Shown: positions 13,307-33,103 of the stretch, one piece after another
Numbering within the stretch: position 1 is the stretch's first letter
How the letters are laid out: each line of letters opens with the position of its first letter
Made by a program: the position numbers and the translations under genes
Notes under the pieces: model-generated
Told to the model about the DNA's origin: nothing
Seen by the model: the letters and a program-made list of their open reading frames with translations, nothing else
Databases searched by the model: none
Assembly: GCA_016284575.1 (NCBI GenBank)
Contig: JAEEPD010000202.1
Span: forward strand, 1 to 41,504
DNA from: Bacillota bacterium
Lineage (GTDB): Bacteria; Bacillota; Clostridia; Peptostreptococcales; Anaerovoracaceae
DNA: 41,504 nt
Reading direction: 5' to 3'

Positions 13307-13321
13307 TATGATGATTTATAA

Positions 13322-13433
13322 GTGCTTTGCTTACTGCCCTCAGGGCCCGCTCTCGCCCTTCGCCAAACAAGCTGAGGTCTATTGGCTTGGGCTGGCGCTT
13401 GCGACGACCCCTCGCGGCAGTAAGCTTCAGCAC
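13322..13433. repeat. Long imperfect palindrome between ecfA2 and ecfT
   Basis: GTGCT-TT-GCTTACTGCC (13322-13338) pairs with GGCAGTAAGC-TTC-AGCAC (13416-13433). Confidence 0.6.
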
Positions 13434-13440
13434 ATTCATA

Positions 13441-15250: not shown

Positions 15251-15934
15251 TCAGTCGCGCAGGCGGTTGCGGTCCCTTGGGAAGCCGGGCTGGCGCTTCT
15301 CCAGCTCGTGGACCTGCTTTTCGAAATCGTCCATCTCCTCGGGCATGGAATCTTCCTCGGAGAGGTCCAGGCTGTTTCTGTCAATGCCCGGCTTTTTGAT
15401 GAACTCCACTCTGCGAAGCCACAGGATCATGAGAACGGAGCCGGCCAGGACCATGAGCCGCAGAACAAGATAGAGCAGTGTGTTCAGCAGCTGAGCCTTC
15501 ATGCCGCCGTAGACTATGTTGTAAACGATTATGGAGATAAAGCCTGCAAGGGAGCTTACCGCCGCCAGCAGGAAACGGGCCGGTATGGTGGAATAGCTGC
15601 CGTTGTACTGGTGGTAGCGAAGGGGCTCGTTATAGAAAAGGCCCTTCCCTGCCGCCCACAAGGCCATGGCAGTGCCGAAGACCTCGGGTATATAGGGCAG
15701 AAGCATGGATCTCGTGTTCATGCCGGAGAATTTGAAGAAGCCGCTCACAAAGCAGCAGGCAAATACCAGCAGCGATGCTCCCGCCAGCTTCCAGGAAAAG
15801 CTCTTGTACTCGCCTTCCTTGTGGAAGTAGTAGTTGGGGCCAACGTAGATCACATTGCCCTGAGCATCCTCCACCAGGTACTTGAGCATGTCTCTGTATT
15901 CTTTTCTAAGCGTTATAAAACGTTCTATCCTCAT
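15251..15934 (-). CDS. Hypothetical multi-pass membrane protein
   Basis: 227 aa, four or more predicted TM segments, charged C-terminal tail. Confidence 0.65.
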   Translation of the reverse strand: MRIERFITLRKEYRDMLKYLVEDAQGNVIYVGPNYYFHKEGEYKSFSWKLAGASLLVFACCFVSGFFKFSGMNTRSMLLPYIPEVFGTAMALWAAGKGLFYNEPLRYHQYNGSYSTIPARFLLAAVSSLAGFISIIVYNIVYGGMKAQLLNTLLYLVLRLMVLAGSVLMILWLRRVEFIKKPGIDRNSLDLSEEDSMPEEMDDFEKQVHELEKRQPGFPRDRNRLRD

Positions 15935-16070: not shown

Positions 16071-17615
16071 TTAGTCTTCGTAGATTACCCAGTTGTAAGC
16101 TTCGAGGTTCCACAGAGAGATGGAGGGGCTGAACTTGCAGCCTTCGATGTCGTCTCTGATACCGAAGATGGTGTCAACTTCTGCGAACGGCATGGTGTAT
16201 CTGATGTCGTAGATGTACTGGAGGGTTTCCTTGATCATGGTCTTTCTCTTTTCGAGGTCGTAGCACTGTTCAAGGTCATCCAGCATCTTGTCCAGCTTGT
16301 CATCGTTGTTTCCGATTCTGGAACCAAATGCGGAGTCGTAGATGATCAGGATGGAGGTAACTTCAGATGCGTTGCCGGAACGGATGGAAGCTTCCCAGGG
16401 CTTGCCGGATGCAGCAGGCTCACGGGCTGCCAGCTTGGAGGTCTCGATGTGAACATTGAAGCCGACCTTGTTCCAGAACTGCTGAACGATCTCAGCTGCA
16501 GTCTTGAACTCGCCGCCGGAAGCGATGTGGAGCTCGATCTCCATGCCTTCTACGCCGCACTCCTTAACAAGAGCAGCAGCCTTGTCGGGATCATACTCCC
16601 ACTTGCCGGTGCCGCCGCCGTAGATGGGGGTAGCGCCTTCAGTCTTGGAGGGGATGGGGCAGGTCATAACGGAAGCCTGTCCGTCGAAGGTAGCGTCGGT
16701 CAGAGCGTCAAGGTCGATTGCCAGGGACAGAGCCTCGCGGACTCTTCTGTCAGCGAACTTGGGGTTCTGCATGTTGAGGCATACGGTGTAGTACTTGTAT
16801 GCGCGGCCTCTTTCGATGTGATATCCGTCGAAGGAGTCAACACGGTCAGCGTCGTTGCCGTTGATGTAGAATGCCATGTCAGCTTCGCCGGTCTCGAGAG
16901 CGATAACTCTGGAGTTGGCTTCCTGTACGAATCTGATTTCGAATTCGGGGGTCTTGGCCTGTCCGCCGTACCAGGTATCGTTTCTTTCAAGAACGATGTT
17001 GGAACCGGTAGTCCAGCTCTGGAGCTTGTACGGGCCGGTGCCGATGGGCTCTCTCTGATAAGCGTCTGCGCCTACCTTCTCGTAGGTGGTCTTGTCAGCG
17101 ATGTAGGTTCTGCCGCCGCAAAGTACCTGCATAGCAGGGAAGTACGGATAGTTGAAGGCAAGAACTACTTCGTAGTCGCCGTTGGCATAGGAGTTGACAT
17201 CGTCATACCATGCCATGGTGGAGATAGCAGTGGAGTCAGTCTTGGTCTGTGCGAAGGAGAAGAGTACGTCTTCTGCGGTGAAGTCTTCGCCGTTGGAGAA
17301 CTTGACGCCCTCTCTGAGCTTGAACTTCAGGTGGAGGTCATCCAGCCATTCCCACTCAGTTGCCAGATCAGGATTGAAGGTGGCAGTATCATAGTCATAG
17401 TCCATCAGAGCAGAATAGATCAGTCTGTTGGGGATACCCTGAGCTACGGAGTTGGTTCTGGGTCCGAGGTGTGCGGGTTCTTCTTCGGTAACGACGATGA
17501 TTCTTTCCTTAACAGCCTTGTTGGAGTTTCCGTCGTTTCCGCCTTCGCCGCCGCAGGCTGCCAGCATTCCCATTGCCAGTACCAGGACGAGAAGAAGGGA
17601 TACAAATTTCTTCAT
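16071..17615 (-). CDS. ABC transporter substrate-binding lipoprotein (SBP_bac_5, Opp/Dpp type)
   Basis: MKKFVSLLLVLVLAMGMLAAC lipobox; ATEWEWLDDLHLKFKLREGVKFSNGEDFTAEDVLFSF. Confidence 0.93.
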   Translation of the reverse strand: MKKFVSLLLVLVLAMGMLAACGGEGGNDGNSNKAVKERIIVVTEEEPAHLGPRTNSVAQGIPNRLIYSALMDYDYDTATFNPDLATEWEWLDDLHLKFKLREGVKFSNGEDFTAEDVLFSFAQTKTDSTAISTMAWYDDVNSYANGDYEVVLAFNYPYFPAMQVLCGGRTYIADKTTYEKVGADAYQREPIGTGPYKLQSWTTGSNIVLERNDTWYGGQAKTPEFEIRFVQEANSRVIALETGEADMAFYINGNDADRVDSFDGYHIERGRAYKYYTVCLNMQNPKFADRRVREALSLAIDLDALTDATFDGQASVMTCPIPSKTEGATPIYGGGTGKWEYDPDKAAALVKECGVEGMEIELHIASGGEFKTAAEIVQQFWNKVGFNVHIETSKLAAREPAASGKPWEASIRSGNASEVTSILIIYDSAFGSRIGNNDDKLDKMLDDLEQCYDLEKRKTMIKETLQYIYDIRYTMPFAEVDTIFGIRDDIEGCKFSPSISLWNLEAYNWVIYED

Positions 17616-17652
17616 TTTGGTCTTCCTTTCTTGAAAAGTCTGTGCGCATGAG

Positions 17653-17669
17653 ATGTGCCGTGGGCACAT
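17653..17669. promoter_or_regulatory. Hairpin in the leader of the SBP gene (between the transporter ATPase and SBP)
   Basis: ATGTGCC-GTG-GGCACAT perfect 7-bp stem about 38 bp upstream of the SBP start. Confidence 0.4.
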
Positions 17670-17761
17670 TCAGATATCGATATTTTAGCACCATACTTTA
17701 GTGTGGCATAATATCAATTTCCGCGTGATTAATAACACATCTGCATGAATTATATTAGGCT

Positions 17762-18742
17762 TTAGGCCTGAATATCATTGATCTCCCTTACCTTGTGGCA
17801 GGCCACGAAGTGTCCGGGGACGACCTCCTCAAGAGCAGGTGTCTTGTGGAAGCACTCTTCGGAGGCGAAGGGGCAGCGCTTAGCAAAGCGGCATTCGTCG
17901 CCGGGGTTGATGGGCGATGTGAGCTCGCCCTTGATGACCTTTCTTTCCTTCTTTGCACCGATCTCGGGGATAGGTACTGCAGAAAGAAGAGCCTTGGTGT
18001 AGGGGTGCAGTCTCTGGCGGAACATCTCCTCGGAGTCCGCGAACTCAACTGCACAGCCCAGGTACATTACCATAATGTCGTTGGAGATGTGGCGCACTAC
18101 CGACATGTCGTGGGTGATGAACATGTAGGTAAGGTTTCTCTCCTCCTGCAGATCCTGCATCAGGTTGATGATCTGAGCCTGAATGGAAACGTCCAGAGCG
18201 GATACGGGCTCGTCGCAGACGATGAACTTGGGGTTCAGGGCCAGGGCACGGGCTACGCCTATTCTCTGGCGGCGTCCGCCGTCCAGCTCGTGGGGGTAAG
18301 CGTTGGAAAGTCTTGCTGCCAGACCTACGGTGTCCATCAGCTGGCCTACTCTCTGAGCCAGCTCGTTGGAGTTCTTGGTCTCCTTGTAAATGAGCAGGGG
18401 CTCAGCGATCAGCTGGGATACGGACATTCTGGGGTTCAGAGAGGAGAAGGGATCCTGGAAGATCATCTGCATGTCTCTTCTGAGCTCCTTCAGCTGGGGC
18501 TTGGTGACATCGGAGATGTCCTTGCCGTCGAACCAGATCTTTCCGGAGGTCTTTTCGTGAAGGTGGATGACGGTACGGCCCAGTGTGGACTTGCCGCAGC
18601 CGGATTCGCCTACAACGCCCAGAGTCTGGCCTTCCTTGATGCTGAAGTTTACATGGTCTACAGCATGCAGATCGCCTCTGGGAGTCTTAAAGAATTTGGT
18701 AAGCTCCTCTACCTGGAGCATGGTCTTTTTATCTTCTGCCAT
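17762..18742 (-). CDS. oppF: Oligopeptide/dipeptide ABC transporter ATP-binding protein OppF-like
   Basis: Walker A GESGCGKSTLGR, FQDPFSSLNPRM, C-terminal CRFAKRCPFASEEC. Confidence 0.9.
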   Translation of the reverse strand: MAEDKKTMLQVEELTKFFKTPRGDLHAVDHVNFSIKEGQTLGVVGESGCGKSTLGRTVIHLHEKTSGKIWFDGKDISDVTKPQLKELRRDMQMIFQDPFSSLNPRMSVSQLIAEPLLIYKETKNSNELAQRVGQLMDTVGLAARLSNAYPHELDGGRRQRIGVARALALNPKFIVCDEPVSALDVSIQAQIINLMQDLQEERNLTYMFITHDMSVVRHISNDIMVMYLGCAVEFADSEEMFRQRLHPYTKALLSAVPIPEIGAKKERKVIKGELTSPINPGDECRFAKRCPFASEECFHKTPALEEVVPGHFVACHKVREINDIQA

Positions 18743-18754
18743 TTTCCTTCCTCC

Positions 18755-19717
18755 CTATTCAAACAGTCTGCATCTTACCAGATGGCCCGGTTCGATCTCT
18801 TTGGTGACCAGCTTTCCGCTTCTGCACTCGTCCTTTGCGTGGGGGCAGCGGTCTGCGAATACGCAGCCGTCGGGCAGATTTGCGGGATCCGGCATCAGGC
18901 CCTTGATGGGCTTGAGTCTGTGGGTCTTGGAGTTGAAGTTCGGAATGGAGCCGAACAGACCCTGAGTGTAGGGATGGCTGGTGTTGTTGTAAATGTGCTC
19001 CAGGGTGCCGTACTCGACGATCTCGCCTGCGTACATGATGGCTACCTTGTCGCAAACCTCTGCTACGATGCCCAGGTCGTGGGTGATCAGCAGCATGGAG
19101 GTGTTGAACTGCTTCTTAAGGTTATCGATCAGGTCCAGCACCTGCTCCTGAATGGTAACATCCAGAGCGGTGGTGGGCTCATCAGCCAGAAGCAGGGAGG
19201 GGTCGCAGGCCAGAGCCATAGCGATAACGATACGCTGCTTCATGCCGCCGGAGAACTGATGGGGATACTCGCCGGCTCTTGCGCCTTCGATTCCTACCAG
19301 CTCCATCATTTCCATAGCCTTGAGCTCGGCGTCTCTCTTGGAGAGATTCTGGTGGAGACGGATAACCTCAGCGATCTGATAGCCTACGGTCTCTACCGGG
19401 TTCAGAGCAGTCATTGGATCCTGGAAGATCATGGAGATCTGGTGTCCGCGGATGGAGCGCATCTCGTGCTCGGACTTCTTCATCAGGTCCTCGCCCTTGT
19501 AGATGATCTCGCCGCCGATGACCCTTCCGGGGGGATCCGGTACCAGACGCATGATGCCCAGAGCAGTGGTGGTCTTGCCTGCGCCGGTCTCGCCTACCAG
19601 GCCCAGGGACTCGCCCTCAGCGATCTGAAGGGAGATGCCGTTTACAGCCTTAACTGTTTCCTGGTCGGTAACATAATGTATGGTGAGATCCTTGATCTCA
19701 AGAATATTGTTTGCCAT
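18755..19717 (-). CDS. oppD: Oligopeptide/dipeptide ABC transporter ATP-binding protein OppD-like
   Basis: Walker [78 protein letters not shown]. Confidence 0.9.
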
Positions 19718-19729
19718 TAGCTTACCTCC

Positions 19730-20614
19730 TTAGGACTTCAGACGCGGATCCAGAGCGTCGCGCAGACCGTCGCCCAGCAGGTTGAAGGCGAATACTGCAA
19801 GCATGATCGCCACACCGGGGAAGATTACGATGTACGCATGGTCTCTGATAACCTGTCTGCCGTTGGAAAGCATGGAGCCCCACTCGGGAGTAGGAGCCGG
19901 AACGCCCAGACCGATAAAGGACAGACCGGAGATGGACAGTATGGAGGCTGCGATGCTCATGGAGATCTGTACGATGATGGGTGCCAGAGCGTTGGGCAGT
20001 ACATACTTGGTGATGATGCGGAAGTCGGAAGCGCCGGTGGCTCTTGCGGCTTCGATGTATTCCTGGTCTCTGATGGTGATTACAGAGGAACGGCAGATAC
20101 GGGAGAAGCCTGCGATGGAGCTGATACCCATGGCGAATATCAGTACGTAGATGCTGCTTCCGAAGGCCGCTACTATGGAGATGCCCAGCAGGGTGCTTGG
20201 GATGGCCATCAGTACGTCCATGATACGCATCAGGATGTTGTCGGTGACGCCGCCGTAGAAACCTGCGATGCAGCCTACGATGGTGCCCAGAATGCAGGAT
20301 ACGGCCACAGCGGAGAGGGAGATCTCAAGGGAGGTCCTTGCGCCCCAGACCATTCTGGTGAGTACGTCACGGCCCAGCTCGTCGGTGCCGAAGATGTGCT
20401 CAGCATTGGGATGGCAGTATCTGTTGGACAGATCCTGAGAGTAGTAGTCCTCGCCTACCAGCTGTGCGGGGAACAGAGCGCAGATCAGGAACATCACGAT
20501 GATGAGAAGACCTACGATGCCGCCCTTATTTTTCTTGAACCGTCTGACGAAATCGCCGAACTGGCTCTTTTTCTTCATGGAGATTGCATCTGCAGTTGAC
20601 ATTTCTTTTGACAT
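19730..20614 (-). CDS. oppC: Oligopeptide/dipeptide ABC transporter permease OppC-like
   Basis: HIFGTDELGRDVLTRMVWGARTSLEISL; EYIEAARATGASDFRIITKYVLPNALAPIIVQ. Confidence 0.9.
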   Translation of the reverse strand: MSKEMSTADAISMKKKSQFGDFVRRFKKNKGGIVGLLIIVMFLICALFPAQLVGEDYYSQDLSNRYCHPNAEHIFGTDELGRDVLTRMVWGARTSLEISLSAVAVSCILGTIVGCIAGFYGGVTDNILMRIMDVLMAIPSTLLGISIVAAFGSSIYVLIFAMGISSIAGFSRICRSSVITIRDQEYIEAARATGASDFRIITKYVLPNALAPIIVQISMSIAASILSISGLSFIGLGVPAPTPEWGSMLSNGRQVIRDHAYIVIFPGVAIMLAVFAFNLLGDGLRDALDPRLKS

Positions 20615-20615
20615 A

Positions 20616-21590
20616 CTATGCCTCCTTTGCAGCTGCAGCGGGAGCTGCCTTGGCCTTCTTGACCTTTACATACTGAGATCTGATACGCGGATCGATGAAT
20701 GCATAGAGGATATCTACGATCAGGTTGGCTACCGACATGGTCAGCGCCAGGAAGAGCACGCCGCCCTGTACCTGAGGAGCATTCTTGAGGTTGATGGAGT
20801 CGATCAGCAGCTTGCCGAGGCCGGGGATGGCGAATACCATCTCGGTGATGGAGGAGCCGCCCAGCATTCTTCCGAACTGCATACCTACTACGGTAACGAT
20901 AGGAATAGCAGCGTTCTTAAGAGCATGTCTCCAGATAACTACGGATTCCTTCTGACCCTTTGCTCTGGCGGTTCTGATGTAGTCCTGACGGATAGCCTCC
21001 AGCATGTTGGAGCGGGTCATACGCATGATAGAGGATGCGGAGTGGAGACCCAGAGTGAGTGCAGGCATTATCCAGTGCTTCCAGGTCTTGAAGCCTGCTG
21101 CAGGCAGCCAGCCCAGCTTGACGGAGAACAGAAGCATCAGCATCAGTCCCAGCCAGAAGGTAGGCATGGATACGCCGATCATTGCGATAAAGCGGCAAAT
21201 GTTATCCCAGAGGGAGTACTGCTTTACCGCAGAGATAATACCTGTCGTAAGACCTAATATACTCGACACGACTACGCTGAAAAACGCGAGTTTAAAAGTG
21301 GTCGGGAAACGGGTAAGGATCTCTTCAGTTACAGGCTTCTTGGTGTTGTAGGAAATACCAAGGTCGCCCTTGAGGGCCTTACGGACATAGTTGAAATACT
21401 GAATCCAGAATGGCTTATCAAGGCCGTTCTCAACACGGAACGCTTCCTTGTCCTCTGCGGTAGCCATATCGCCCAGGATATAGTCTTCCGCATTGCCGGG
21501 GGAGAAGTACATCATGGAGAATACCACCAGTACAACGCCCAGCATTACCGGGATAAGCATCAGGATTCGTCTGCCAATGAATTTAAGCAT
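20616..21590 (-). CDS. oppB: Oligopeptide/dipeptide ABC transporter permease OppB-like
   Basis: MLKFIGRRILMLIPVMLGVVLVVFSMMYFSPG; DYIRTARAKGQKESVVIWRHALKNAAIPIVTVVG; start re-set to internal Met. Confidence 0.9.
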   Translation of the reverse strand: MLKFIGRRILMLIPVMLGVVLVVFSMMYFSPGNAEDYILGDMATAEDKEAFRVENGLDKPFWIQYFNYVRKALKGDLGISYNTKKPVTEEILTRFPTTFKLAFFSVVVSSILGLTTGIISAVKQYSLWDNICRFIAMIGVSMPTFWLGLMLMLLFSVKLGWLPAAGFKTWKHWIMPALTLGLHSASSIMRMTRSNMLEAIRQDYIRTARAKGQKESVVIWRHALKNAAIPIVTVVGMQFGRMLGGSSITEMVFAIPGLGKLLIDSINLKNAPQVQGGVLFLALTMSVANLIVDILYAFIDPRIRSQYVKVKKAKAAPAAAAKEA

Positions 21591-21827
21591 AAGTTGAGTC
21601 CTCCAAATGATTGCTGCTAAGGCTTTCGCCCAAAGGGTAAAGATGACTTTTACCCTTATAAAAAAGATATAGATATTATTACATGCAGACATAGTTTTTT
21701 GAAATGCCTTGATTAGGTTTATTAATGCAATCGTGTAATCATTCGGCTAAATTTATCTTGAATTCATATCAATTTCGTAATATAATAATGCTGGAATGGC
21801 ATTAATCTGCGTGAGGGGGATAGAACG

Positions 21828-22754
21828 ATGTCAAGCATGCTTAGATTAAAGTATTTTGTGAGCCTTGCAGACAATCTGAGCTTTACCAAGGCTGCACAGG
21901 AATGCTTCATAGTACAGACTGCCATGAGCCGTCAGATAGCGGCGCTGGAGGCGGAGCTGGGAGTGCAGCTTTTCGTAAGGAATACAAGGACCGTGGAGCT
22001 TACAGAGGCGGGCAAGGAATTCTACAGCTTTGCGGTGAGCGCTCTTAATGACTACAACAGAGGTGTAGAGCGGGCCAAGATGGTCTCCGCCAGCTACGAC
22101 TGGACCCTCAAGATAGGCATAGGCCCTCAGGAGCATCTGCTGCTGGAGCCCCTGCTGTCTCAGTTCATAGAACTGTATCCGCAGACTGCGGTCATAGTTG
22201 ATCAGATGGGCTACCGGAACCTGCAGAAATACTACAGGGAGGGGGCATATGACATCATCTTAGGCCACAGAAAAAGGCTGCCGGAGTTTGATGACGCAAA
22301 CAGGATAGAGTTTCCCGGCATCAAGTGGGGCATAATCCTCTCTGAGAAGAATCCGCTGGCTGAAAAGGAAGACATCATGCCGGAGGACATGTCGGGACAG
22401 ACCTTCGTGAGCATGACCTCCATAAACATGGAGCAGTTCGAGGAGGCTGTACACCAAAGCTTCCCGGGCTCCAAGTTCATCAGCGCCAATTCCATACCGC
22501 TTAAGTACATGTTCGTGCGCATGAACATGGCCATCGCTTATATGCCCGGCTTTCTTGCCAAGGACATGCCCAGCGGCATAGTCTTCAGGGAAAGCAGCTG
22601 GATGAATGAACCCCTTAAGGATGATCTGGAATTCGACATGGTCTACAGGGTGACCGCCCACGAAAGGCGGGCCCAGGCGGAATTTATAAGGATCGCGTCG
22701 GATTATCTCACCAGCGGGGGAGACAAGCCCTGGATGCACACCCAAAGAGAGTAG
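21828..22754 (+). CDS. LysR family transcriptional regulator
   Basis: RLKYFVSLADNLSFTKAAQECFIVQTAMSRQIAALEAELGVQLFVRNTRTVELTEAG. Confidence 0.95.
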   Translation: MSSMLRLKYFVSLADNLSFTKAAQECFIVQTAMSRQIAALEAELGVQLFVRNTRTVELTEAGKEFYSFAVSALNDYNRGVERAKMVSASYDWTLKIGIGPQEHLLLEPLLSQFIELYPQTAVIVDQMGYRNLQKYYREGAYDIILGHRKRLPEFDDANRIEFPGIKWGIILSEKNPLAEKEDIMPEDMSGQTFVSMTSINMEQFEEAVHQSFPGSKFISANSIPLKYMFVRMNMAIAYMPGFLAKDMPSGIVFRESSWMNEPLKDDLEFDMVYRVTAHERRAQAEFIRIASDYLTSGGDKPWMHTQRE

Positions 22755-22883: not shown

Positions 22884-23723
22884 TTATGCTTCCAGAGTGT
22901 CGCAGGTGTCGGGACGTCTGTTGTGCAGCTGACCGATGGATCTTCTAACCTCTTCGATATAGTCAAGATCGATGTCGGCATAGATGATGCCTGTGCGCTC
23001 CTGGGCTCTTGCGATAACCTTGCCCCAGGGATCAACTACCATGGATTCGCCGAAGCTTGCGGCAACGGGACCGCCGTACTGGCCGGCAGCCACCATGTAG
23101 CAGCCGTTCTCCAGAGCTCTTGCTCTGAGCAGCACTTCCCAGTGGTCCTTACCGGTGACCATGGTGAAGTTTGCGGGGTTGAACAGCAGCTGAGCTCCCA
23201 TGAGGGTCATCTTTCTGAAGAGCTCGGGGAAGCGGATGTCGTAGCAGATGGCCAGGCCAAGCTTACCAAGCTCGGTGTCAACGACTACCACCTCGCTGCC
23301 GGGCTTGCAGCGGGAGGATTCCTTTGCAACGTGGCCGCTGGGAAGGGTCACATCGAAGGGATGGATCTTGTGATATTCAGCTATGACTTCGCCCTGGGGA
23401 TCCACAACGAAGGTGGTGTTGTAGGTCCTGGGATCCTCGGGGTTCTCGGTCTGGATACCGAAGGAACCGCAGTGGATGTAAACGCCGTGCTCCTTGGCCT
23501 TCTGCTGGAAGAGCCTGAGTGTGGGGCTGTCCTCTCTGGTCTCGGGGGAGGGAGCGTTGTCGTCCTGTCCGCCTCTTCTTCTGGAAACGGCCTCGGGGAA
23601 GGAGATGAGCTTTGCGCCTCTTGCAGCGGCCTCGTCGATGGAGTCTGCAATGAACTTCCAGTTAGCCTCTCTGTCGGTGCCGGAATTGGTCTGAACCACG
23701 GCAATCATGTATTTCTTGATCAT
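22884..23723 (-). CDS. Nitrilase-superfamily carbon-nitrogen hydrolase (copy B)
   Basis: Glu-Lys-Cys triad in ISFPEA, YHKIHPFDV, LAICYDIRFPELFRKM. Confidence 0.92.
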   Translation of the reverse strand: MIKKYMIAVVQTNSGTDREANWKFIADSIDEAAARGAKLISFPEAVSRRRGGQDDNAPSPETREDSPTLRLFQQKAKEHGVYIHCGSFGIQTENPEDPRTYNTTFVVDPQGEVIAEYHKIHPFDVTLPSGHVAKESSRCKPGSEVVVVDTELGKLGLAICYDIRFPELFRKMTLMGAQLLFNPANFTMVTGKDHWEVLLRARALENGCYMVAAGQYGGPVAASFGESMVVDPWGKVIARAQERTGIIYADIDLDYIEEVRRSIGQLHNRRPDTCDTLEA

Positions 23724-23741
23724 TTTATAGCCTCTTTCTTC

Positions 23742-24581
23742 CTACTTTACCATGCCTGTGGGTTCTTTTTCGAGTCCGGGATAGACGTCAGGACGTCTGT
23801 TGGACAGGGTTCCGAGCATCATGGCGCACTGATCTGCATAATCCAGATCGATGTCGCCGTAAACGATGCAGGGCTTCTCCTGAGCTCTGGCAATTACCAG
23901 GCCCCAGGGGTCTACGATCATGGAGTTGCCGAAGCAGGGGCCGCCATACTGAGCGGCTGCGATAACGTAAGCGCTGTTCTCCAGAGCTCTGGTCCTCTGC
24001 ATAACTTCCCAGTGGTCCTTGCCGGTGGTCATCATGAAGGCTGCTGCGGTGATGAACACCTGAGCGCCCTGCATGGCCATTCTTCTGTAGAGCTCAGGGA
24101 AGCGGATGTCGTAGCAAAGGGACAGGCCGATCTTGCCCAGCTCGGTGTCGACAACGACGATCTTGTCGCCGCGGACGGTGGTCTTGGATGCGTCGAATAC
24201 TCTGCCGTCGGGGAGGACTACGTCGAAGGGATGGAGCTTGACGTACTTTGCGATCTGCTTTCCGTCAGGTCCGAACATGAAGGTTGCGGTGTTGACTCTG
24301 GTCTCTCCGGGGATCTCAAGAGGAATACTGCCGCCGACTACATAGATGCCGTGCTCCTTGGCCTTTGCAGCCAGAGTGGTGCATGCGGGACCGTCGGGTC
24401 TTTCTTCTCTCTTGACACCCTCCTGGGGCTTTCCTGCGATCAGGAAGTGCTCGGGCAGGGATACCAGCTTGGCGCCGTTCTTTGCAGCTTCATCGATGGC
24501 GTTGCAGGCGAACTCCAGGTTCTTTTCCTTGTCTGCGCCGGAGCTCATCTGAACGGCAGCGACTTTATACTGTCTGGTCAT
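23742..24581 (-). CDS. Nitrilase-superfamily carbon-nitrogen hydrolase (copy A)
   Basis: Glu-Lys-Cys triad in VSLPEH, YVKLHPFDV, LSLCYDIRFPELYRRM. Confidence 0.92.
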   Translation of the reverse strand: MTRQYKVAAVQMSSGADKEKNLEFACNAIDEAAKNGAKLVSLPEHFLIAGKPQEGVKREERPDGPACTTLAAKAKEHGIYVVGGSIPLEIPGETRVNTATFMFGPDGKQIAKYVKLHPFDVVLPDGRVFDASKTTVRGDKIVVVDTELGKIGLSLCYDIRFPELYRRMAMQGAQVFITAAAFMMTTGKDHWEVMQRTRALENSAYVIAAAQYGGPCFGNSMIVDPWGLVIARAQEKPCIVYGDIDLDYADQCAMMLGTLSNRRPDVYPGLEKEPTGMVK

Positions 24582-24593
24582 TTTTGTTCTCCT

Positions 24594-25292
24594 TTACTTC
24601 TTCCAGAAATCGGGAGCGAGCTCGCCGCTTCTGAGGGCATTGATGATGTCCTGGATCTTGGCTTCTTCCAGAACCTTTACGGAAGGTCTGCCGGATGCGG
24701 GCAGGGGCTGGCCGGATTCATAGGCAGCTCTCATCTTGGCTTCTCTTGCAGCCATGGCTTCTGCTCTTTCGAGCATCTCCTCATAGCCTTCAGAGGGCAT
24801 TACTACAAGGCCGTCGCAGTCGCCGAGGATGATGTCTCCGGGGTGAACAACGGCGCCGCCGCAGCAGACGTCGATCTGGGTCTCACCGGTGATGCCCCAG
24901 CAGTTGCAGGTAACGGCGGAGAGGCCGCTGCAGAATACGGGGAAGTCCTCGAAGGTGCGGATGTAAGCGGAGTCGGTGGCCATGCCGTCGATGACAAAGC
25001 CTGCCAGGCCCTTTGCTCTTGCGCCGCGGGCTACGAATTCGCCAACGGGAGCGTAGATGTCGTCCCCTGCTCTGTCGATAACGATGACGCTGCCTTCAGG
25101 TGCATCCTCAATGGCCTTGAACATGGCATAGTGGTCCTTGCCATAGGTCTTGACGGTGTATGCGGGGCCGCAGATCTTGGAGTTGGGGTTGATGGGCTTG
25201 ATCTTGGGCGCCATGAAGCGGACACCGATGAAGTGGCCGTAGGCGGCGGGATCAGTCTTCATAAATCTTGCTTTTAATTCTTCAGTCCACAT
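24594..25292 (-). CDS. RraA-like family protein
   Basis: KICGPAYTVKTYGKDHYAMFKAIEDAPEGSVIVIDRAG...GLAGFVIDGMATDSAYIR...GDIILGDCDGLVVMP; start re-set to internal Met. Confidence 0.85.
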   Translation of the reverse strand: MWTEELKARFMKTDPAAYGHFIGVRFMAPKIKPINPNSKICGPAYTVKTYGKDHYAMFKAIEDAPEGSVIVIDRAGDDIYAPVGEFVARGARAKGLAGFVIDGMATDSAYIRTFEDFPVFCSGLSAVTCNCWGITGETQIDVCCGGAVVHPGDIILGDCDGLVVMPSEGYEEMLERAEAMAAREAKMRAAYESGQPLPASGRPSVKVLEEAKIQDIINALRSGELAPDFWKK

Positions 25293-25367
25293 GATAATTT
25301 GCCTTTCTGTCTGCCGCATCCTCAGAAGGATGTCCGGCATGCTTTATAGTCTATTAACGATTAACGA

Positions 25368-26111
25368 TTAAGCCTTGATATCAACAGCCCATTCGTCCTT
25401 CAGGAAGCTGCAGATGCGAGCAACTGCGGCCTCGACCACTGCCTTGCCCTTCTCTGCGGTGCCAAGAGTTGCATCGCCGACGGTGGCAGAGGGAGTCTTG
25501 TCCTGCATGGGGACGAAGGTCATGATGTCGGGGTAGTTGACTACATTGGGCTCGATCTTGGTGGCCTTGCTCATGTCCACCAGGTCGGGACGGAAGTAGA
25601 GGATGACGGAGGTGCCTGCCTCAGCAGCGTGGCCGTGGCACATTCTGCCCTCGGTGTCGAAGATGCCCTTGCCAAGAGGCTGAACGAATCTCCACCAGTC
25701 AACCTGAGCCCACTTGCAGCCCTTCTGCTCCTGGTACTTGCGGGCAACATACATGATGGTGGAGTTGCTGGCGGCATGACCGGTGATGAAGAGGAACTTT
25801 CTGAAGCCGTAGTCGTAAAGCTGAGCCATCAGCTCCTCGATGTACATCTCAAACAGCTTCGGGGTGATGGTGAGGGTGCCCGGATAGGCCAGCAGCATGC
25901 TGGAATCTGCCAGGGGGAAGCAGGGAGCGATCAGGGCGTTGCACTTTTCAGCAACGAGCCTTGCTACTCCGTCTGCTGCGATGGCGTCGGAGCCCATGGG
26001 AAGATGGGTGCCGTAGATCTCGCAGGCGCCTGTGGGGATGATCACAAGATCGGTCTCCTTGCGGCGCTTGTCGAATTCGGACCAGGGCATTTCATTGATA
26101 ACGTTTGTCAT
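25368..26111 (-). CDS. Creatininase family protein (copy B)
   Basis: IIPTGACEIYGTHLPMGSDAIAA, FITGHAASN, CHGHAAEAGTSVILYFRPDLV. Confidence 0.88.
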   Translation of the reverse strand: MTNVINEMPWSEFDKRRKETDLVIIPTGACEIYGTHLPMGSDAIAADGVARLVAEKCNALIAPCFPLADSSMLLAYPGTLTITPKLFEMYIEELMAQLYDYGFRKFLFITGHAASNSTIMYVARKYQEQKGCKWAQVDWWRFVQPLGKGIFDTEGRMCHGHAAEAGTSVILYFRPDLVDMSKATKIEPNVVNYPDIMTFVPMQDKTPSATVGDATLGTAEKGKAVVEAAVARICSFLKDEWAVDIKA

Positions 26112-26203
26112 GATTTTTCTCCTGTTATGTAAAGCTATAGGTTAACGTTATTTAAGGGACTGCAGGCTTACGCAGCTTTAATAAGGGCCCGCAGCTGCAG
26201 AAG

Positions 26204-26641
26204 CTATGCCTTTCTCAGCTCTTCAGCCTTGGCAGCGTTTCTTTCTTCCATTTCCTTCTGCTTCTGTACATACTGTGCGTAGTTGGGATTGAAGGGACGC
26301 AGATACCCGCTGCTGCCTGCGTTGTCGTTGCCGTGCTCCTTGAAGATCACGATGGAACGGCCATGATCCTCGCCCAGAGCCAGTGTGCATGCTCTTTCGA
26401 AGCCTGCGCAGATCAGGTTCTTGCCCTCCGGAGTCTTGCCGAAGGTGGTGAAGATGTAGAGGCACTGCATGTGCTTGGTCTGCTCGTCGCAGTTCTCAGC
26501 CTTGATCTCCTGGATGGAAACGAAGCTGTGGTCCATGGAAACGCCAAAGCCCTCCATGCAGGCCTTCTTGGTCTCCTGGATCAGGAGCTGCTTCTGCTCC
26601 TTGGTGTAACCTTCTACGATGTTTATGATTCCTAAAGACAT
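26204..26641 (-). CDS. Tautomerase-superfamily-like protein, two-repeat, lacking Pro1
   Basis: SLGIINIVEGYTKEQKQLLIQETKKACMEGFGVSMDHSFVSIQEI plus second unit YIFTTFGKTPEGKNLICAGFERACTLALG...SIVIFKEHGNDN. Confidence 0.6.
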   Translation of the reverse strand: MSLGIINIVEGYTKEQKQLLIQETKKACMEGFGVSMDHSFVSIQEIKAENCDEQTKHMQCLYIFTTFGKTPEGKNLICAGFERACTLALGEDHGRSIVIFKEHGNDNAGSSGYLRPFNPNYAQYVQKQKEMEERNAAKAEELRKA

Positions 26642-26659
26642 TTTGTTTCTCCTTTCAGA

Positions 26660-27400
26660 CTAGATGTCCCACTTCTTATTCATGAATTCAACGATGCGGT
26701 CCACGCACTTGTCGATTATGGCCTTGCCCTTCTCTGCGGTGCCCTTGGTGGCGTCACCGACGGTGGCGTTGGGGCTGCGGAAGTCCATGGGGAAGTACTG
26801 CATGATGTCAGGATATTCAAAGCACTGGGGATTCAGCTCCACGCGGGTCATTCTTTCCTTGACCACCAGCTCGGGACGGAGGTAGAGCATTACAGAGGTG
26901 CCTGCCTCAGAGGCGTGACCGTGAGCCATCTGGCCCTTCTCCTCGAAGATGTCCATGCCGTTGGGCTGAACGAATCTCCACCAGTCCACCTGAGCGTAAT
27001 GGATGCCGTGGGACTTGGTGTACTTGACGCCTACCTGATTGATGGGGCCTACGCTGCCGCCGTGTCCGGTGATGAAGAGCAGGTTCTTGAATCCGTACTC
27101 CACAACGAGGCACTCAACGATGTCCTCCATAACGGCCTTGAAGGTCTCGGAAGATACGGTGATGGTGCCGGGGTATGCCATAAGGGACTTGGAGTCGGAT
27201 ACGGGCATCATGGGTGCGATCAGGGCGCCGGTCTTTTCTGCGATGCGCTCTGCAACGCCCATGGCTGCGATCCCGTCCTCGCCCATGGGAAGGTGGGGTC
27301 CGTAGATCTCAACTGCTCCGGTGGGGATGATAACAGTATTGGTGTTTTTACGGCGCTCGTCGAATTCGACCCAGCTCATTTCGTCTATTCTGTAAGTCAT
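26660..27400 (-). CDS. Creatininase family protein (copy A)
   Basis: IIPTGAVEIYGPHLPMGEDGIAAMGVAERIAEK, FITGHGGS, HGHASEAGTSVMLYLRPELV. Confidence 0.9.
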   Translation of the reverse strand: MTYRIDEMSWVEFDERRKNTNTVIIPTGAVEIYGPHLPMGEDGIAAMGVAERIAEKTGALIAPMMPVSDSKSLMAYPGTITVSSETFKAVMEDIVECLVVEYGFKNLLFITGHGGSVGPINQVGVKYTKSHGIHYAQVDWWRFVQPNGMDIFEEKGQMAHGHASEAGTSVMLYLRPELVVKERMTRVELNPQCFEYPDIMQYFPMDFRSPNATVGDATKGTAEKGKAIIDKCVDRIVEFMNKKWDI

Positions 27401-27539
27401 TTTTCCTCCTGCCCGATACTAAGCGGGCTGCAGCTTGCGCTTTGTTACTTTTATGCACTAAAATAATACAATCTATCAGTAAATAATACAAACGCATAAA
27501 TTTAGCGGATTAATGATTGATTGTAGTAAAAAGCAAAGT

Positions 27540-27567
27540 AAAACCCGGGGCTTTAGCTCCGGGTTTT
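27540..27567 (-). terminator. Terminator downstream of the pilus/sortase operon
   Basis: AAAACCCGGGGCTTTAGCTCCGGGTTTT hairpin ending in a T-tract on the minus strand. Confidence 0.75.
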
Positions 27568-27638: not shown

Positions 27639-28322
27639 TCACTCTGTTTTATCGCATCTGATGGCTGTTCTGTGGCTGCCGCCCGGGGTACAGGTGAAAA
27701 GTGTCAGGTCCCAGTCGCCGAGCACATCAGTCATGTATTCTATTTCGTGAGACTCGAGGGTCTCGATCTTGCTTACCTTGTATTTGTAGTGGGTCCCGTC
27801 CACACTGCGGAAGTCGACGTCTGTACCGATGGCGGCATTGCGCAGAGGGCCGAAGTGGTTGCTGTAGTTGTGTGCGCAGATGACCAGATCCCCGCTCTTG
27901 TAGCTTCCGCTGTAGCGGCAGGGAGCGGTCTTGAGCTTGTCGTAGTCCCAGTTCTCCATAACAGGAAGAGATAGGCCGTAGGCGTCCACATCAAGGATGC
28001 CGATGTAGCGGTCTCCGTCCAGCAGGCAGATATCCATGGGTAGAAACTCCGCAGGGAGGTCCGGGTCCACGGGGAAGATCTCGTTTCCGATCAGCTGCTG
28101 GCTGTCATCTCCCGTCTGAACATAGACGCCGGCGTCGACGGTCTGGCTTACAGCCTGCCCGCTGTTGATGCGGGACGCCAGCTCGTTTCGCACAGTCAGG
28201 GAAGCCGTGCCTGCGCGGCGGTCCTCGTTCACGTTATGGACGACCAGTGTCAGGGCTGCAAGGATGAGCAGCAGGCCTATGGCAAGTATTGAATTTCCGA
28301 CAATACGTCTTGTCTTATTCAT
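27639..28322 (-). CDS. Sortase (second sortase of the pilus locus)
   Basis: N-terminal TM; VICAHNYSNHFGPL (His), LTLFTCTPGGSHRTAIRC (Cys, Arg). Confidence 0.88.
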   Translation of the reverse strand: MNKTRRIVGNSILAIGLLLILAALTLVVHNVNEDRRAGTASLTVRNELASRINSGQAVSQTVDAGVYVQTGDDSQQLIGNEIFPVDPDLPAEFLPMDICLLDGDRYIGILDVDAYGLSLPVMENWDYDKLKTAPCRYSGSYKSGDLVICAHNYSNHFGPLRNAAIGTDVDFRSVDGTHYKYKVSKIETLESHEIEYMTDVLGDWDLTLFTCTPGGSHRTAIRCDKTE

Positions 28323-29745
28323 TCTCTTTCTTCTTTCTTCTGAGCAGGAGTCCGAAAATGCTCAGGACTGTGCCGCTGCCCGCAAGAACAGGTACGGGCC
28401 ACCAGAGCTGGCCGGTCTGGGGCAGATGGGCCAGGGGGTTGCCGTTTTCATCGAGGTCCTCGTCCTCATCTACCTCTTCACCGTCATCTCCGGGGGTGCT
28501 GCTGCCGGGATCGGGACCGCCGTGTTCGGAATCATCGCTGTCTTCACTTCCCGGATCCTCGCCTCCGCCGATACCGGGATCGGTGGTAATGCTTTCAGGA
28601 GTGGTTGGAGTCTCGCCGCCGTCCAGCACATTCACGAATTCCATGATGCTGGCGCGGACGTTGTCAGAGCGGATGTAGCTCACGCTGAGGACTATCTCTC
28701 CATCCTTGGCGCGGACCGCCACATTCATTGTGTATGTTTTGGTTTCGTATTCGAATTTGGGATTGGTGCCGACATTCTCGGAAATGATGTAGCTGTAATC
28801 CTTATCCACATCCTCCAGGCCGAACTGCATCCAGCCGAACTCGACTTCGCCCTCGCCCGTAATGCTGGCCTCCATGGTGGAGCCTCGCGTTCCGTTGGGC
28901 ATGGGAGCATCAGCCTGAAGCGGCTTCATGGTGAAGACGAACACATCGCTTCCGGAGTAGGGCTTGCCGCTCTTGTCGATGATCTTCTTTCGGATGGGCG
29001 GATCCAGCTCTGCCTTGGGAGCGGGCTTGGGATTTTCTATTTTTGTGTTGGTTACAGTGTAGCGAAGTCCTGTGCTGCTTACCGAAGCCGTGTAGCCTTC
29101 GACAGGCTCCTCCGATACATTGTATGTGTATCCGGCATCCAGACCGCTGAAGGTATGTCTCCAGCCGCCTGCTGCAGTAAGAACCGCGGAATCGATCAGA
29201 CTGCCGTTCTTAAACAGATTGACTGTGATGGAGGGAGGAAGCGTATCCTCGGGGGAGACACCTGACCATACTTTACTTACATATACTTTTACGGTCTCCG
29301 GGTCCGGGTCCGGAGCGGGGGTAAAGACGTTGCTGAAATCGATATCGTCATATTTGGTCAGATCGCCGGGCTTGTAATACCCCAGATTGAAGGCCAGCTT
29401 GCCCATGACATCTTTGTAGATGTAGACTCTTGCGGTATAGATCATCCGGTCATAGGCGACTGTCGCAGTATCGGCATTCTCGACCTTGATGGTGAAATCA
29501 TAGACGCCTTCTGCGGTAAAGGTCCTTGTAAAGCTTTGCGCAGTCCCGGGAACCAGATCCAGTGTATCGAGAAGAGTATCCGTTGCATCATCTGTTAATG
29601 ACACTCTGCAGCCTACTCCGCTGCAGCTTACCGGCATATTTACATCTATGCTGCCTGCGCCATAGACCGGCCATGCGGAAAAGACCGTCAACAGCAGGCT
29701 AAGTGCCCAGATCAGGCTTGTTCGTCTAATTATCTTGTTTTTCAT
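28315..29745 (-). CDS. LPXTG-anchored surface protein / putative minor or basal pilin with Cna_B and Spy0128-like domains
   Basis: Signal peptide; VKVYVSKVWSGVSPEDTLPPSITVNLFKNG...GLDAGYTYNVSEEPVEGY (Cna_B); acidic stalk; LPQTG-hydrophobic-RRKKKENE. Confidence 0.88.
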   Translation of the reverse strand: MKNKIIRRTSLIWALSLLLTVFSAWPVYGAGSIDVNMPVSCSGVGCRVSLTDDATDTLLDTLDLVPGTAQSFTRTFTAEGVYDFTIKVENADTATVAYDRMIYTARVYIYKDVMGKLAFNLGYYKPGDLTKYDDIDFSNVFTPAPDPDPETVKVYVSKVWSGVSPEDTLPPSITVNLFKNGSLIDSAVLTAAGGWRHTFSGLDAGYTYNVSEEPVEGYTASVSSTGLRYTVTNTKIENPKPAPKAELDPPIRKKIIDKSGKPYSGSDVFVFTMKPLQADAPMPNGTRGSTMEASITGEGEVEFGWMQFGLEDVDKDYSYIISENVGTNPKFEYETKTYTMNVAVRAKDGEIVLSVSYIRSDNVRASIMEFVNVLDGGETPTTPESITTDPGIGGGEDPGSEDSDDSEHGGPDPGSSTPGDDGEEVDEDEDLDENGNPLAHLPQTGQLWWPVPVLAGSGTVLSIFGLLLRRKKKENE

Positions 29746-30466
29746 TGCTTCCCGTATCCTCCGTTTTGAGGGTTATGGTGCCTATTACCAGAAGTCTGTC
29801 GTTCATGCCTTCACCGTAGCACGTGGACAGAGCCAACAGAGGCAGATCTGCTTCCGGTTCTTCGTATATAAGGGCATTATCCTGAAGATAAGCCAGAACT
29901 TTCGATTTTGATGTCTTTTTTACATTGAACAGCACAGGATCCATTCCATCGCCCTTCGTTACAGCAAAGAGCCTGTAATCAAATACCTGCGATTCGGATG
30001 TTAATGTTCCTGTCTTGTGTGCTTCATAGTAATCTTTGGACAAATATTCCTCCAGCGAGCCGAACATCTTGCCGTATTCCATGTGATGTCCGTAAACCAA
30101 AGAATATTCGTCGGAAAAATCCTTTGCGTTGCCCGCATCCAGAAAGATGCTGCCGCTAAGGGAGAAGTCTCCATAAGGGTCTATATTGAGGAACTCAAAA
30201 TTGTCCTCCCCCTGCATCAGCGGATAGTCGATGTTCGTACCATCCAGCGCTATCCAGCCTGCCTGCTTGTCTGTGATCTTCTTTTCGGGAGCCAGGGGTA
30301 TGTCCAGCTCCGGTTTATAGTATAGAAGGGATTTGTCGGACGCATGCTGATAGAGATACGCATTGTCCAGTACCGAATATGTACCGATGAACATCATGAG
30401 CAGGCAAACCAGCACTAATGCCAGATCTATGATTCTGTCTATAAGTCTTATGATGCTGCCTGCCAT
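29726..30466 (-). CDS. Class B-like sortase (pilus polymerising candidate)
   Basis: SLVYGHHMEYGKMFGSLEEYL (His), LLALSTCYGEGMNDRLLVIGTI (Cys, Arg); start re-set to Met at 30466. Confidence 0.9.
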   Translation of the reverse strand: MAGSIIRLIDRIIDLALVLVCLLMMFIGTYSVLDNAYLYQHASDKSLLYYKPELDIPLAPEKKITDKQAGWIALDGTNIDYPLMQGEDNFEFLNIDPYGDFSLSGSIFLDAGNAKDFSDEYSLVYGHHMEYGKMFGSLEEYLSKDYYEAHKTGTLTSESQVFDYRLFAVTKGDGMDPVLFNVKKTSKSKVLAYLQDNALIYEEPEADLPLLALSTCYGEGMNDRLLVIGTITLKTEDTGSNEKQDN

Positions 30467-30567
30467 TGTCGTCCTAAAATACCTTAATGAAATTGCAGTC
30501 CGGGCGCCCTGCCCTGCTGCGGGTCTTAGCTGCACTCAGGGAAACTCAGGCCTTAAGTGCTGCATCC

Positions 30568-30598
30568 CGGCGGAGAGAGGACCAGCCCCTCTCCGCCG
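30568..30598 (-). promoter_or_regulatory. GC-rich intercistronic hairpin between pilin and sortase genes
   Basis: CGGCGGAGAG(A)GG / CCCTCTCCGCCG stem, no T-tract. Confidence 0.5.
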
Positions 30599-30687
30599 TA
30601 ATAAATATCGCTCTTCGTCTGTTGATCTGCGGTCCTGGATGTTTGTTTATTCAGCAAGCTTCAGGACCCAAAGCACTGATTTTCTGC

Positions 30688-31800
30688 TTAATGCTGCTTT
30701 CTCTTCCTGGAGGCAAGCATGATCAGCAGACCTGCGCCGCCAATGGTGATGACGGCAATGGCAGGAGCAACTGAGAGAAGTACACCGGTGGGTACGGTAG
30801 CATCCTTGGTGTTTCTGAATAATACTTCTACAGCAGATTCACCGATACTGTGATTTCCTGTAGTCAATCCGGACACATAGTCTCCCTCACCGACGATCTT
30901 GTACTCGGAAGTATACCCAGGCTCTTCTGTTTCTGTAACATTATAGGTTGCGCCCTGAATAAGCTTGATAGAAACATCTTCATCATCCTTCAGCCAGAAC
31001 ACAACTGAAGCAGTGCCATCTGCTCCAATAGTGACAGAAGTCGGATTCGCATAGTTTGCAGGCTCACCAAAGAGGGTGGTTGCAGGGGTTCCGGGGCCAC
31101 CGGCAGTATTAACAGGTAGCGTATTGCCTGCGACTGCACTCATGCCTGAAAGATTAACAGTAAACATAAAGTACTGATCTTTTGATCCAAGAGCTCCGCG
31201 GACAAGCTTTTCGATCGTCAGCTGCGGCTCTTTTGCAGGATAGTTATCAACGATAGAGTTTATTTTTGTTGTTGAAGACAGACTTTCACTCAATCCGTAA
31301 GAGATCTCCAGATTACCACTGTTATCAACAACTCTGACCACCAGATAAAGTGTCTTTTTCTCATTTGATACCTTAGGATCTCCTGTAGCACCTGCACCGG
31401 AGGCCACTTTTTCTACTGTCCAGTAATAGATTCCCGGCTGGGTAAATGACAGAGAAGAAAGATCGATAGAAAAATCCTTCTTCAGCTTTCCATCAGCGGG
31501 CAGGGTGTCAGTAGGACCAAAAGATAATGTAGCCAAAGATGTTCCTGTAGGGAACTTTGACACATCAATGGCTCCGGCGTAAAAATAATCTACTCCGCCG
31601 TTTGAGTAGCCTGTCATATTTGATGTTGTTTTGAGCTCATAAGTAACGTTTGGTATAACGGAGCCCGCAACATGCAGCTCCTCTTGTACTGTTACAGTAC
31701 CGCCTGTAACTGCGGTGTACGCGCTTGCCGGCACAGCGCTCAGCGCGAGCAGCAGCATTGCCACAAGCACGCTTGCAAGCCTTCTTGTCTTGTTTTTCAT
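30688..31800 (-). CDS. FctA/Spy0128-like major pilin with VPTG sorting signal
   Basis: MKNKTRRLASVLVAMLLLALSAVPASAYT signal peptide; GIYYWTVEKV...KKTLYLVVRVVDN; C-terminal TVPTGVLLSVAPAIAVITIGGAGLLIMLASRKRKQH. Confidence 0.88.
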   Translation of the reverse strand: MKNKTRRLASVLVAMLLLALSAVPASAYTAVTGGTVTVQEELHVAGSVIPNVTYELKTTSNMTGYSNGGVDYFYAGAIDVSKFPTGTSLATLSFGPTDTLPADGKLKKDFSIDLSSLSFTQPGIYYWTVEKVASGAGATGDPKVSNEKKTLYLVVRVVDNSGNLEISYGLSESLSSTTKINSIVDNYPAKEPQLTIEKLVRGALGSKDQYFMFTVNLSGMSAVAGNTLPVNTAGGPGTPATTLFGEPANYANPTSVTIGADGTASVVFWLKDDEDVSIKLIQGATYNVTETEEPGYTSEYKIVGEGDYVSGLTTGNHSIGESAVEVLFRNTKDATVPTGVLLSVAPAIAVITIGGAGLLIMLASRKRKQH

Positions 31801-32160
31801 GTTTTCCTCCTGTTGATTGAAGAGCAATAGAGTTTCTATGTTCTAAATCCGCTGTTGACGGATGATTAGACAGCTATTGGCGGACATTTGTGCTTGTCCG
31901 CCGGTCGTTCATGGTATTAATTTCGAAAAAATAGCGATAGTGATCCTACTAGTGGTCGGGCTGATGAGAGCGGGGCCGCTAGTATAAGATACTAACGCCA
32001 ATTATCCCTGTTTGGGTATGGTTGATGTATAAGTGGTTAACCTTTCGTAATCACTCCTGTTATTGTATTGGAGCTTCATGATATCGCGGAAATGAATCCT
32101 CTTCATAAAATTCGCTTTTCCTACGGGCAAATTCTACCATGTTGATAGGTAGAACGCAAT

Positions 32161-32193
32161 ATGTGTTTTTAACCATTTCGGTTAAAAAACATA
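32161..32193. repeat. AT-rich palindrome in the sipA-pilin intergenic region
   Basis: ATGTGTTTTTAACC-ATTTC-GGTTAAAAAACAT, one mismatch. Confidence 0.5.
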
Positions 32194-32347
32194 TATTTCT
32201 ACTATATTAGTCCTGTGTCTATGATGTTTCGTGGATAATAAGGTTTTTTTTTCACATTTTCTTCTGCTGCATTATCGCGTTAAACTGCTAACACGTTGAA
32301 ATTTCTGAAGCTGAAGACTATGCAGCCTGGGTGCGAAAACCCGTTTG

Positions 32348-33103
32348 CTACAGTCCCCGCCGCCGGATTATGTAGACGGCTTTACCCTTGACATCGTCGG
32401 TACTGATCTCGCCGAAGATGCGGCTGTCGCTGCCGTTTGTGCGAAAATCATCAAGCAGGAATAGGCCGCCCTCCCCGACGACATAGGGGTATTCCACCGA
32501 GGAATCTTCTGCCGGCTGAGTGAGGTAAAAGACCGTTTCGTTTGGAATATAATTGTCCACGACCAGCTGGCCTTCCTGAGTTATGACCACAGTGCTGCCG
32601 CCCTTGGCCACGATGCGGGAGATGCGGTTTTTGCCGCTGATGGGGTCCTGATAGAGCACGATGTCACCCACCCGGCAGGGCTCCAGCCTGTAGGTTATGA
32701 CCAGGTCTCCGTCCATGACGAAGGGGTACATGTGATTGCCGTGGTTGAGGTGCACGCCCAGGACGAATCTGCCCACGAGGAACACGGCAAGGGCGATGAC
32801 TGCGATCTTTATAAGCAGGTGAAGAAGCTCCTGCCCTACGCTGCTGCCCCCCTGTTTCGAAGCGGAGCGTTTTGCCTGATTTCCGGAGGCCGAGTGTCTG
32901 CCGGCGGAGCGGCCGGACCTGGACTTTACAGGAACTTCGGCGGAGGTTTTGCCTGCCGCAGAGCTTTGGGGCACGTCAGCGGGTTCCTTCTGGCCTGCCT
33001 TGAGTTCTTCGGGCATGTCAGCCGGAGCCGGCTGTTTTTCTCTTATTGTAACAAGGACTTCTTCTGTCCCTTTATTTTCAGTTGTTATGTTCTTATCTTC
33101 CAT
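32348..33103 (-). CDS. Signal-peptidase-I-like protein (SipA-like), catalytic residues absent
   Basis: VHLNHGNHMYPFVMDGDLV (Ser box without Ser), NRISRIVAKGG (Lys box without Lys), LFLLDDFRTNGSDSR. Confidence 0.85.
   Translation of the reverse strand: MEDKNITTENKGTEEVLVTIREKQPAPADMPEELKAGQKEPADVPQSSAAGKTSAEVPVKSRSGRSAGRHSASGNQAKRSASKQGGSSVGQELLHLLIKIAVIALAVFLVGRFVLGVHLNHGNHMYPFVMDGDLVITYRLEPCRVGDIVLYQDPISGKNRISRIVAKGGSTVVITQEGQLVVDNYIPNETVFYLTQPAEDSSVEYPYVVGEGGLFLLDDFRTNGSDSRIFGEISTDDVKGKAVYIIRRRGL

Follow-up and report, generated by a model that had tools for sequence, protein, structure and literature searches.

The operon, the adjacent importer and a putative shared upstream site

The window, meaning the whole stretch of 41,504 nucleotides that was analysed, carries six open reading frames on the minus strand at 22884–27400, exactly where an earlier note on this DNA had placed them. 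Read 5' to 3' along the operon, the genes are creA, taut, creB, rraA, nitA and nitB, separated by 18, 92, 27, 12 and 18 bp, and in ascending coordinate order their products are 279, 279, 248, 247, 145 and 246 aa long. All six proteins exceed the curated Pfam cut-offs for their families (Creatininase, 1.2e-56 and 1e-53; CN_hydrolase, 2e-57 and 4e-66; RraA-like, 2e-33; Tautomerase, 5.9e-6), which, with the coordinates and gaps, confirms the description of the locus as six tightly packed minus-strand genes of these families. The features of the locus are:

26660–27400, minus strand: creA, creatininase-family enzyme of the subfamily with Tyr for His36 (Pfam, fold match, alignment)
26204–26641, minus strand: taut, tautomerase-like protein of 145 aa (Pfam, start backed by a ribosome site)
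25368–26111, minus strand: creB, second Tyr-type creatininase (Pfam, alignment, tree)
24594–25292 (annotated frame to 25340), minus strand: rraA, RraA-like protein with a DGMATD motif (Pfam, start codon analysis)
23742–24581, minus strand: nitA, Nit2-like CN-hydrolase, local duplicate (Pfam, residues, tree)
22884–23723, minus strand: nitB, Nit2-like CN-hydrolase with Glu, Lys, Glu and Cys (Pfam, residues)
21828–22754, plus strand: LysR-family regulator, divergent from opp (open reading frame, Pfam)
16071–21692, minus strand: Opp-type ABC importer, oppB, oppC, oppD and oppF with the binding protein oppA (Pfam)
21743–21756, plus strand: TCGGCTAAATTTAT, putative shared operator in the lysR/oppB intergenic region (sequence match)
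27496–27509, minus strand: TCCGCTAAATTTAT, putative shared operator 96 bp upstream of creA (sequence match)

Good Shine-Dalgarno sites precede creA, taut, creB and nitA. No ribosome site precedes the annotated start of rraA (25340). The sequence GAAAGG stands before the Met at 25292, where its closest relative also begins, so that 25292 is probably the true start. At 27540–27567, upstream of the operon, there is a strong hairpin resembling a terminator.

The adjoining LysR gene and Opp-type importer had been left out of the earlier note. Homologues of the importer genes, 45–64% identical to those of the window, lie directly upstream of a cre-nit-rraA series in a Eubacteriales MAG (L005). The sequence GCTAAATTTAT is common, without mismatch, to the lysR/oppB and creA upstream regions, and the wider word TCSGCTAAATTTAT occurs with at most one mismatch only at these two promoter sites in the 2.03-Mb assembly, a word that was picked after the match had been seen and whose match is reached by 26 of 1000 region shuffles (p ~0.03). 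This sequence match makes it probable that the operon is linked to the neighbouring lysR/oppBCDF-A block through shared LysR control of the two putative 14-bp sites.

Elsewhere in the window, the minus strand holds a sortase/pilin-type cluster (27639–33103) with two sortases, a Cna_B/FctA pilin with an LPxTG-like end, a DUF7601 surface protein and a signal peptidase, as well as a gene for a Mutator-family transposase close to the edge of the window (99–1223). Two ABC ATPases and a CbiQ-type permease are encoded at 12494–15179; directly upstream, a minus-strand frame of 227 aa without a family match (15251–15934) may be a so far unrecognised ECF substrate-binding component.

Recurrence of the cassette in other genomes

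The six genes represent a local expansion of a cassette that occurs more widely. In its general form this cassette combines an importer with a creatininase-family enzyme, a Nit2-like amidase and an RraA-like protein, and ten full or partial instances of it besides the window were found in other Bacillota genomes. When 84,980 species genomes were scanned by pattern with creB as the query, a single close relative, L005, was returned; the other instances came from profile searches of further genomes and the reading of gene neighbourhoods. The instances are arranged as follows:

L005: opp-cre-nit-rraA, in which the Opp homologues are followed directly by single cre, nit and rraA genes
L012 and L025: cre-nit-ESS (GltS-like)-rraA
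L011: cre-ESS-M20
L026: GntR|TRAP-nit-rraA
L048: cre-SSS-rraA-nit-KorABC
L089: cre-nit-TRAP
G932, on two contigs: GntR-cre-DctQM (L090) and DctP-nit-rraA (L039)
L038: rraA-TRAP
L093: oppBC-cre-nit

DctP, SSS, M20 and the 2-oxoacid oxidoreductase were confirmed by NCBIfam, which gave no match for the carriers of L011 and L012; the ESS/GltS-like label (L011, L012 and L025) and the unprofiled DctQ, DctM and GntR were assigned by reading the sequence. Some instances are short of a core enzyme, as L089 and L093 have no rraA nearby and the genome of L026 has no creatininase at all. Across the instances the gene content is kept while the order and the importer class (Opp ABC, GltS-like, TRAP, SSS) change, so that the conservation of gene order raised in the earlier note holds for content, in the ten other instances, and fails for order. 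The tautomerase-like gene is missing from every other cassette, with no homologue in 98 sampled relatives or in the plasmid set, and the view of it as a regular member of the operon does not extend to the conserved core.

Neither the 98 relatives nor the creB pattern scan yielded the complete six-gene set a second time, a result that could be taken to mean that unrelated hydrolases lie together here by chance. This is highly improbable and was rejected, as it is contradicted by the recurrence of the core combination in ten other instances with different neighbours.

Since Opp, ESS, TRAP and SSS carriers are exchanged around the same enzymes, the substrate should be taken up from the environment, and to judge by the kinds of carrier a small organic acid is the favoured candidate; with importer classes this different, the substrates may also vary between instances. 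An unlikely alternative is the catabolism of peptides or cyclic dipeptides, in which Opp would import peptides and the creatininases would function as peptidases, in the manner of MftE during the maturation of mycofactocin. The Opp-type importers of the window, L005 and L093 and the M20 amidohydrolase of L011 would fit such a role, but the homologous cassettes are served by carriers of the TRAP, ESS and SSS classes, by which peptides are not usually transported, and OppA scores far below every NCBIfam specificity cut-off. The creatininases likewise lie far below the MftE cut-off (and that of IolN), and a mycofactocin-type peptidase role for creA and creB was rejected on this ground.

The L048 operon runs on into the genes for a complete three-subunit 2-oxoacid:ferredoxin oxidoreductase (KorABC), which is present in this one instance only. 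The alpha subunit is above the curated NCBIfam cut-off, and the beta subunit has its best match, below the cut-off, in the 2-oxoglutarate type.

Other associations of these families were also seen. Creatininase genes of the His type adjoin RraA genes in L065, L070 and L071, and in L065 and L071 the RraA protein is of the Arg type and an oppB-like gene follows, which is a different creatininase-RraA association; these loci were rejected as a second cassette, as the RraA protein keeps its Arg where it was read (L065 and L071) and no nitrilase was seen. Plasmid matches to the creatininase and RraA proteins belonged to unrelated operons.

Residue changes in the cassette enzymes

Both creatininases belong to PF02633 (192 and 183 bits against a gathering cut-off of 31), and the predicted fold of creA (pLDDT 87) matches that of Pseudomonas putida creatininase (PDB 1j2t and 1q3k) with TM scores of 0.79–0.82. 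We take Glu34, His36, Asp45, His120 and Glu122 to be the metal ligands in the solved structures. The equivalents of Glu34, Asp45 and His120 are kept in the cassette enzymes, of which metal-dependent hydrolysis is expected, but the position aligned to His36 is Tyr in 10/10 cassette creatininases (His or Gln in five outgroup proteins) and that of Glu122 is Gly or another residue; Glu122 is not kept in the outgroups either. The ligand set of creatininase (EC 3.5.2.10) is therefore changed at His36 and Glu122.

A degradation of the creatinine, hydantoin or pyrimidine type, which the creatininase fold and a remote similarity to true creatininase might suggest, is thus very unlikely: the two proteins reach 125 and 109 bits in the true-creatininase model TIGR04448, where the cut-off is 235, and no creatinase, hydantoinase or dihydropyrimidinase was present among the profiled cassette genes. 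Assignment of creA and creB as true creatininases was rejected on the score and the changed ligands. From the wider family (BrbF formamidase, MftE, IolN) the cassette enzymes likewise differ in falling well below every equivalog cut-off and in their partner genes. Other chemistry has been found in this family, since BrbF is a formamidase of riboflavin synthesis (PMC9478397), and a new activity in the Tyr-type branch would therefore not be strange.

In profile searches of the searched genomes, the Tyr-type subfamily scores at least 333 bits, as against at most 172 for all other creatininases, and the tree gives weak support (74/86) to its clade in its entirety. Of the Tyr-type creatininase genes in the sampled genomes, 5/7 have a nitrilase gene no more than 1.5 kb away, as against 0/33 of the other creatininase genes (Fisher p 3e-5, where some rows share one genus and are not fully independent). 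Creatininases also occur in catabolic operons of another kind, namely the phosphotriesterase-creatininase-KDGP aldolase sugar operons of Listeria and Alicyclobacillus, which unlike the cassette have no nitrilase and carry sugar-type partners. In L053 and L084, a creatininase gene stands beside apparent phosphotriesterase-like and sugar-isomerase-like genes, resembling the Listeria/Alicyclobacillus plasmid loci.

For both nitrilases the nearest solved relative is Nit2, of the omega-amidase/deaminated glutathione amidase branch. The catalytic Glu, Lys, second Glu and Cys are all kept in nitB and in 9/10 cassette nitrilases overall, whereas nitA has Ala at the second Glu. The cassette proteins differ from this branch in lying far below the NCBIfam cut-offs for deaminated glutathione amidase and N-carbamoylputrescine amidase and in having no transaminase partner.

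The presence of two nitrilases and two creatininases had been read in the earlier note as a sign of two successive steps or paired substrates. For the nitrilases, two conserved successive steps do not follow, as nitA pairs with nitB in the tree (99/96), which marks a local duplication, one copy of which has lost a catalytic Glu, while the other cassettes have one of each enzyme. The creatininase duplication, by contrast, may be older, since creB is 54% identical to the cassette creatininase of L005 and groups with it to the exclusion of creA (97/94).

The RraA-like proteins share their fold family and the metal-binding Asp with HMG/CHA aldolase and the RraA family (PDB 3NOJ). In HMG/CHA aldolase, an RraA-like class II pyruvate aldolase, Arg-123, which precedes the metal ligand Asp-124, stabilises the pyruvate enolate; its replacement by Ala left no detectable activity, and Lys at this position lowered kcat 181-fold (PMC5065237). 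The cassette-type proteins carry Thr at the position of this Arg, reading DGxxTD in 9/9 cases, compared to DGxxRD in 10/10 other RraA proteins, and the nine form a monophyletic group (100/98). Since the catalytic Arg is lost, a role as pyruvate aldolase should not apply, and the HMG- or oxaloacetate-type aldolase activity proposed for rraA was rejected. The proteins also lie far below the cut-offs of the named RraA and aldolase models. A family member with dehydratase/decarboxylase activity has been reported (PMC8563752) and sets a precedent for non-aldolase chemistry.

The Thr type of RraA was present in 2/198 other sampled members of the bacterial family to which the window belongs, G004 and G1067, which together with the absence of the tautomerase-like gene from the 98 relatives indicates that the locus is accessory. 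In G004, of the same genus, the RraA-Thr gene (contig C53, L047, 3705–4400) is 69% identical to rraA of the window and stands alone, with no nitrilase or creatininase near it.

In the tautomerase-like protein, the match to 4-oxalocrotonate tautomerase is confined to the N-terminal 50 residues (E 5.9e-6), and the protein differs from that superfamily in a long C-terminal extension without a known match. Its N-terminus, MSLGII, has Ser in place of Pro-1, and as this start is backed by a good ribosome site, the protein is without the catalytic proline. A single-sequence structure model was weak (pLDDT 54) and gave no usable match.

A proposed route for a small acidic amide

The earlier proposal of a catabolic operon for a nitrogen-containing substrate gains support from the conservation of its gene content in unrelated genomes. 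The statement that it matches no nameable pathway also stands for the literature searched, which left out most subscription journals and in which the gene combination was not found described. The recurring cassette is a new combination or variant built from known enzyme families.

Our preferred reading, to which we give a probability of about two in three, is that of a LysR-controlled unit that takes up and degrades a small acidic amide, in which Opp, creatininase, Nit2-like and RraA-like steps lead to a 2-oxoacid. We infer the substrate, the order of the steps and the individual reactions as follows. The Opp importer would bring in the substrate, for which the candidates are a lactam, a cyclic imide and an N-substituted amide of either a 2-oxo or a dicarboxylic acid. 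Two hydrolytic steps at C–N bonds are suggested by the presence of a creatininase and a Nit2-type enzyme: the Tyr-type creatininase would carry out a first metal-dependent cleavage of the ring or C–N bond to give an open amide acid, and the amidase nitB, with nitA as a diverged paralogue, would release ammonia to leave a carboxylate. The Arg-less RraA-like protein could then perform a metal-dependent non-aldol step, such as an isomerisation, hydration or lyase reaction, so that the carbon skeleton would become a 2-oxoacid for ferredoxin-dependent oxidation; such an end product is suggested by the L048 operon, which runs into the oxidoreductase.

A more specific possibility, which we consider doubtful yet the least improbable of the alternatives, is a 2-oxoglutaramate route, in which a cyclic or N-substituted form would be opened or trimmed by the creatininase or RraA-like protein and nitB would act as omega-amidase to yield 2-oxoglutarate. 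The kinship of the nitrilases to Nit2, itself an omega-amidase, the 2-oxoglutarate-type match of the L048 beta subunit and the recurrence of TRAP and GltS-like carriers are consistent with it. However, no transaminase occurs in any cassette, and the residues do not separate omega-amidase from other members of the Nit branch. 2-Oxoglutaramate sits mostly as the 5-hydroxy-pyroglutamate ring, but the opening of such a carbinolamide needs no hydrolase.

A more far-reaching reading would make the cassette a horizontally mobile, undescribed pathway of anaerobes that feeds a 2-oxoacid into ferredoxin-linked metabolism, with the Tyr-for-His creatininase and the Arg-less RraA-like protein each catalysing a reaction new to its family; we hold this to be an evenly balanced proposition. 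Retention of the cassette while the transporter changes speaks for a single catabolic task, and both residue swaps are clear and cheap markers by which the cassette can be traced in genomes. Assigning the reactions would correct the misleading annotations as creatininase, RNase E regulator and aldolase, and could reveal a nitrogen source of anaerobic bacteria.
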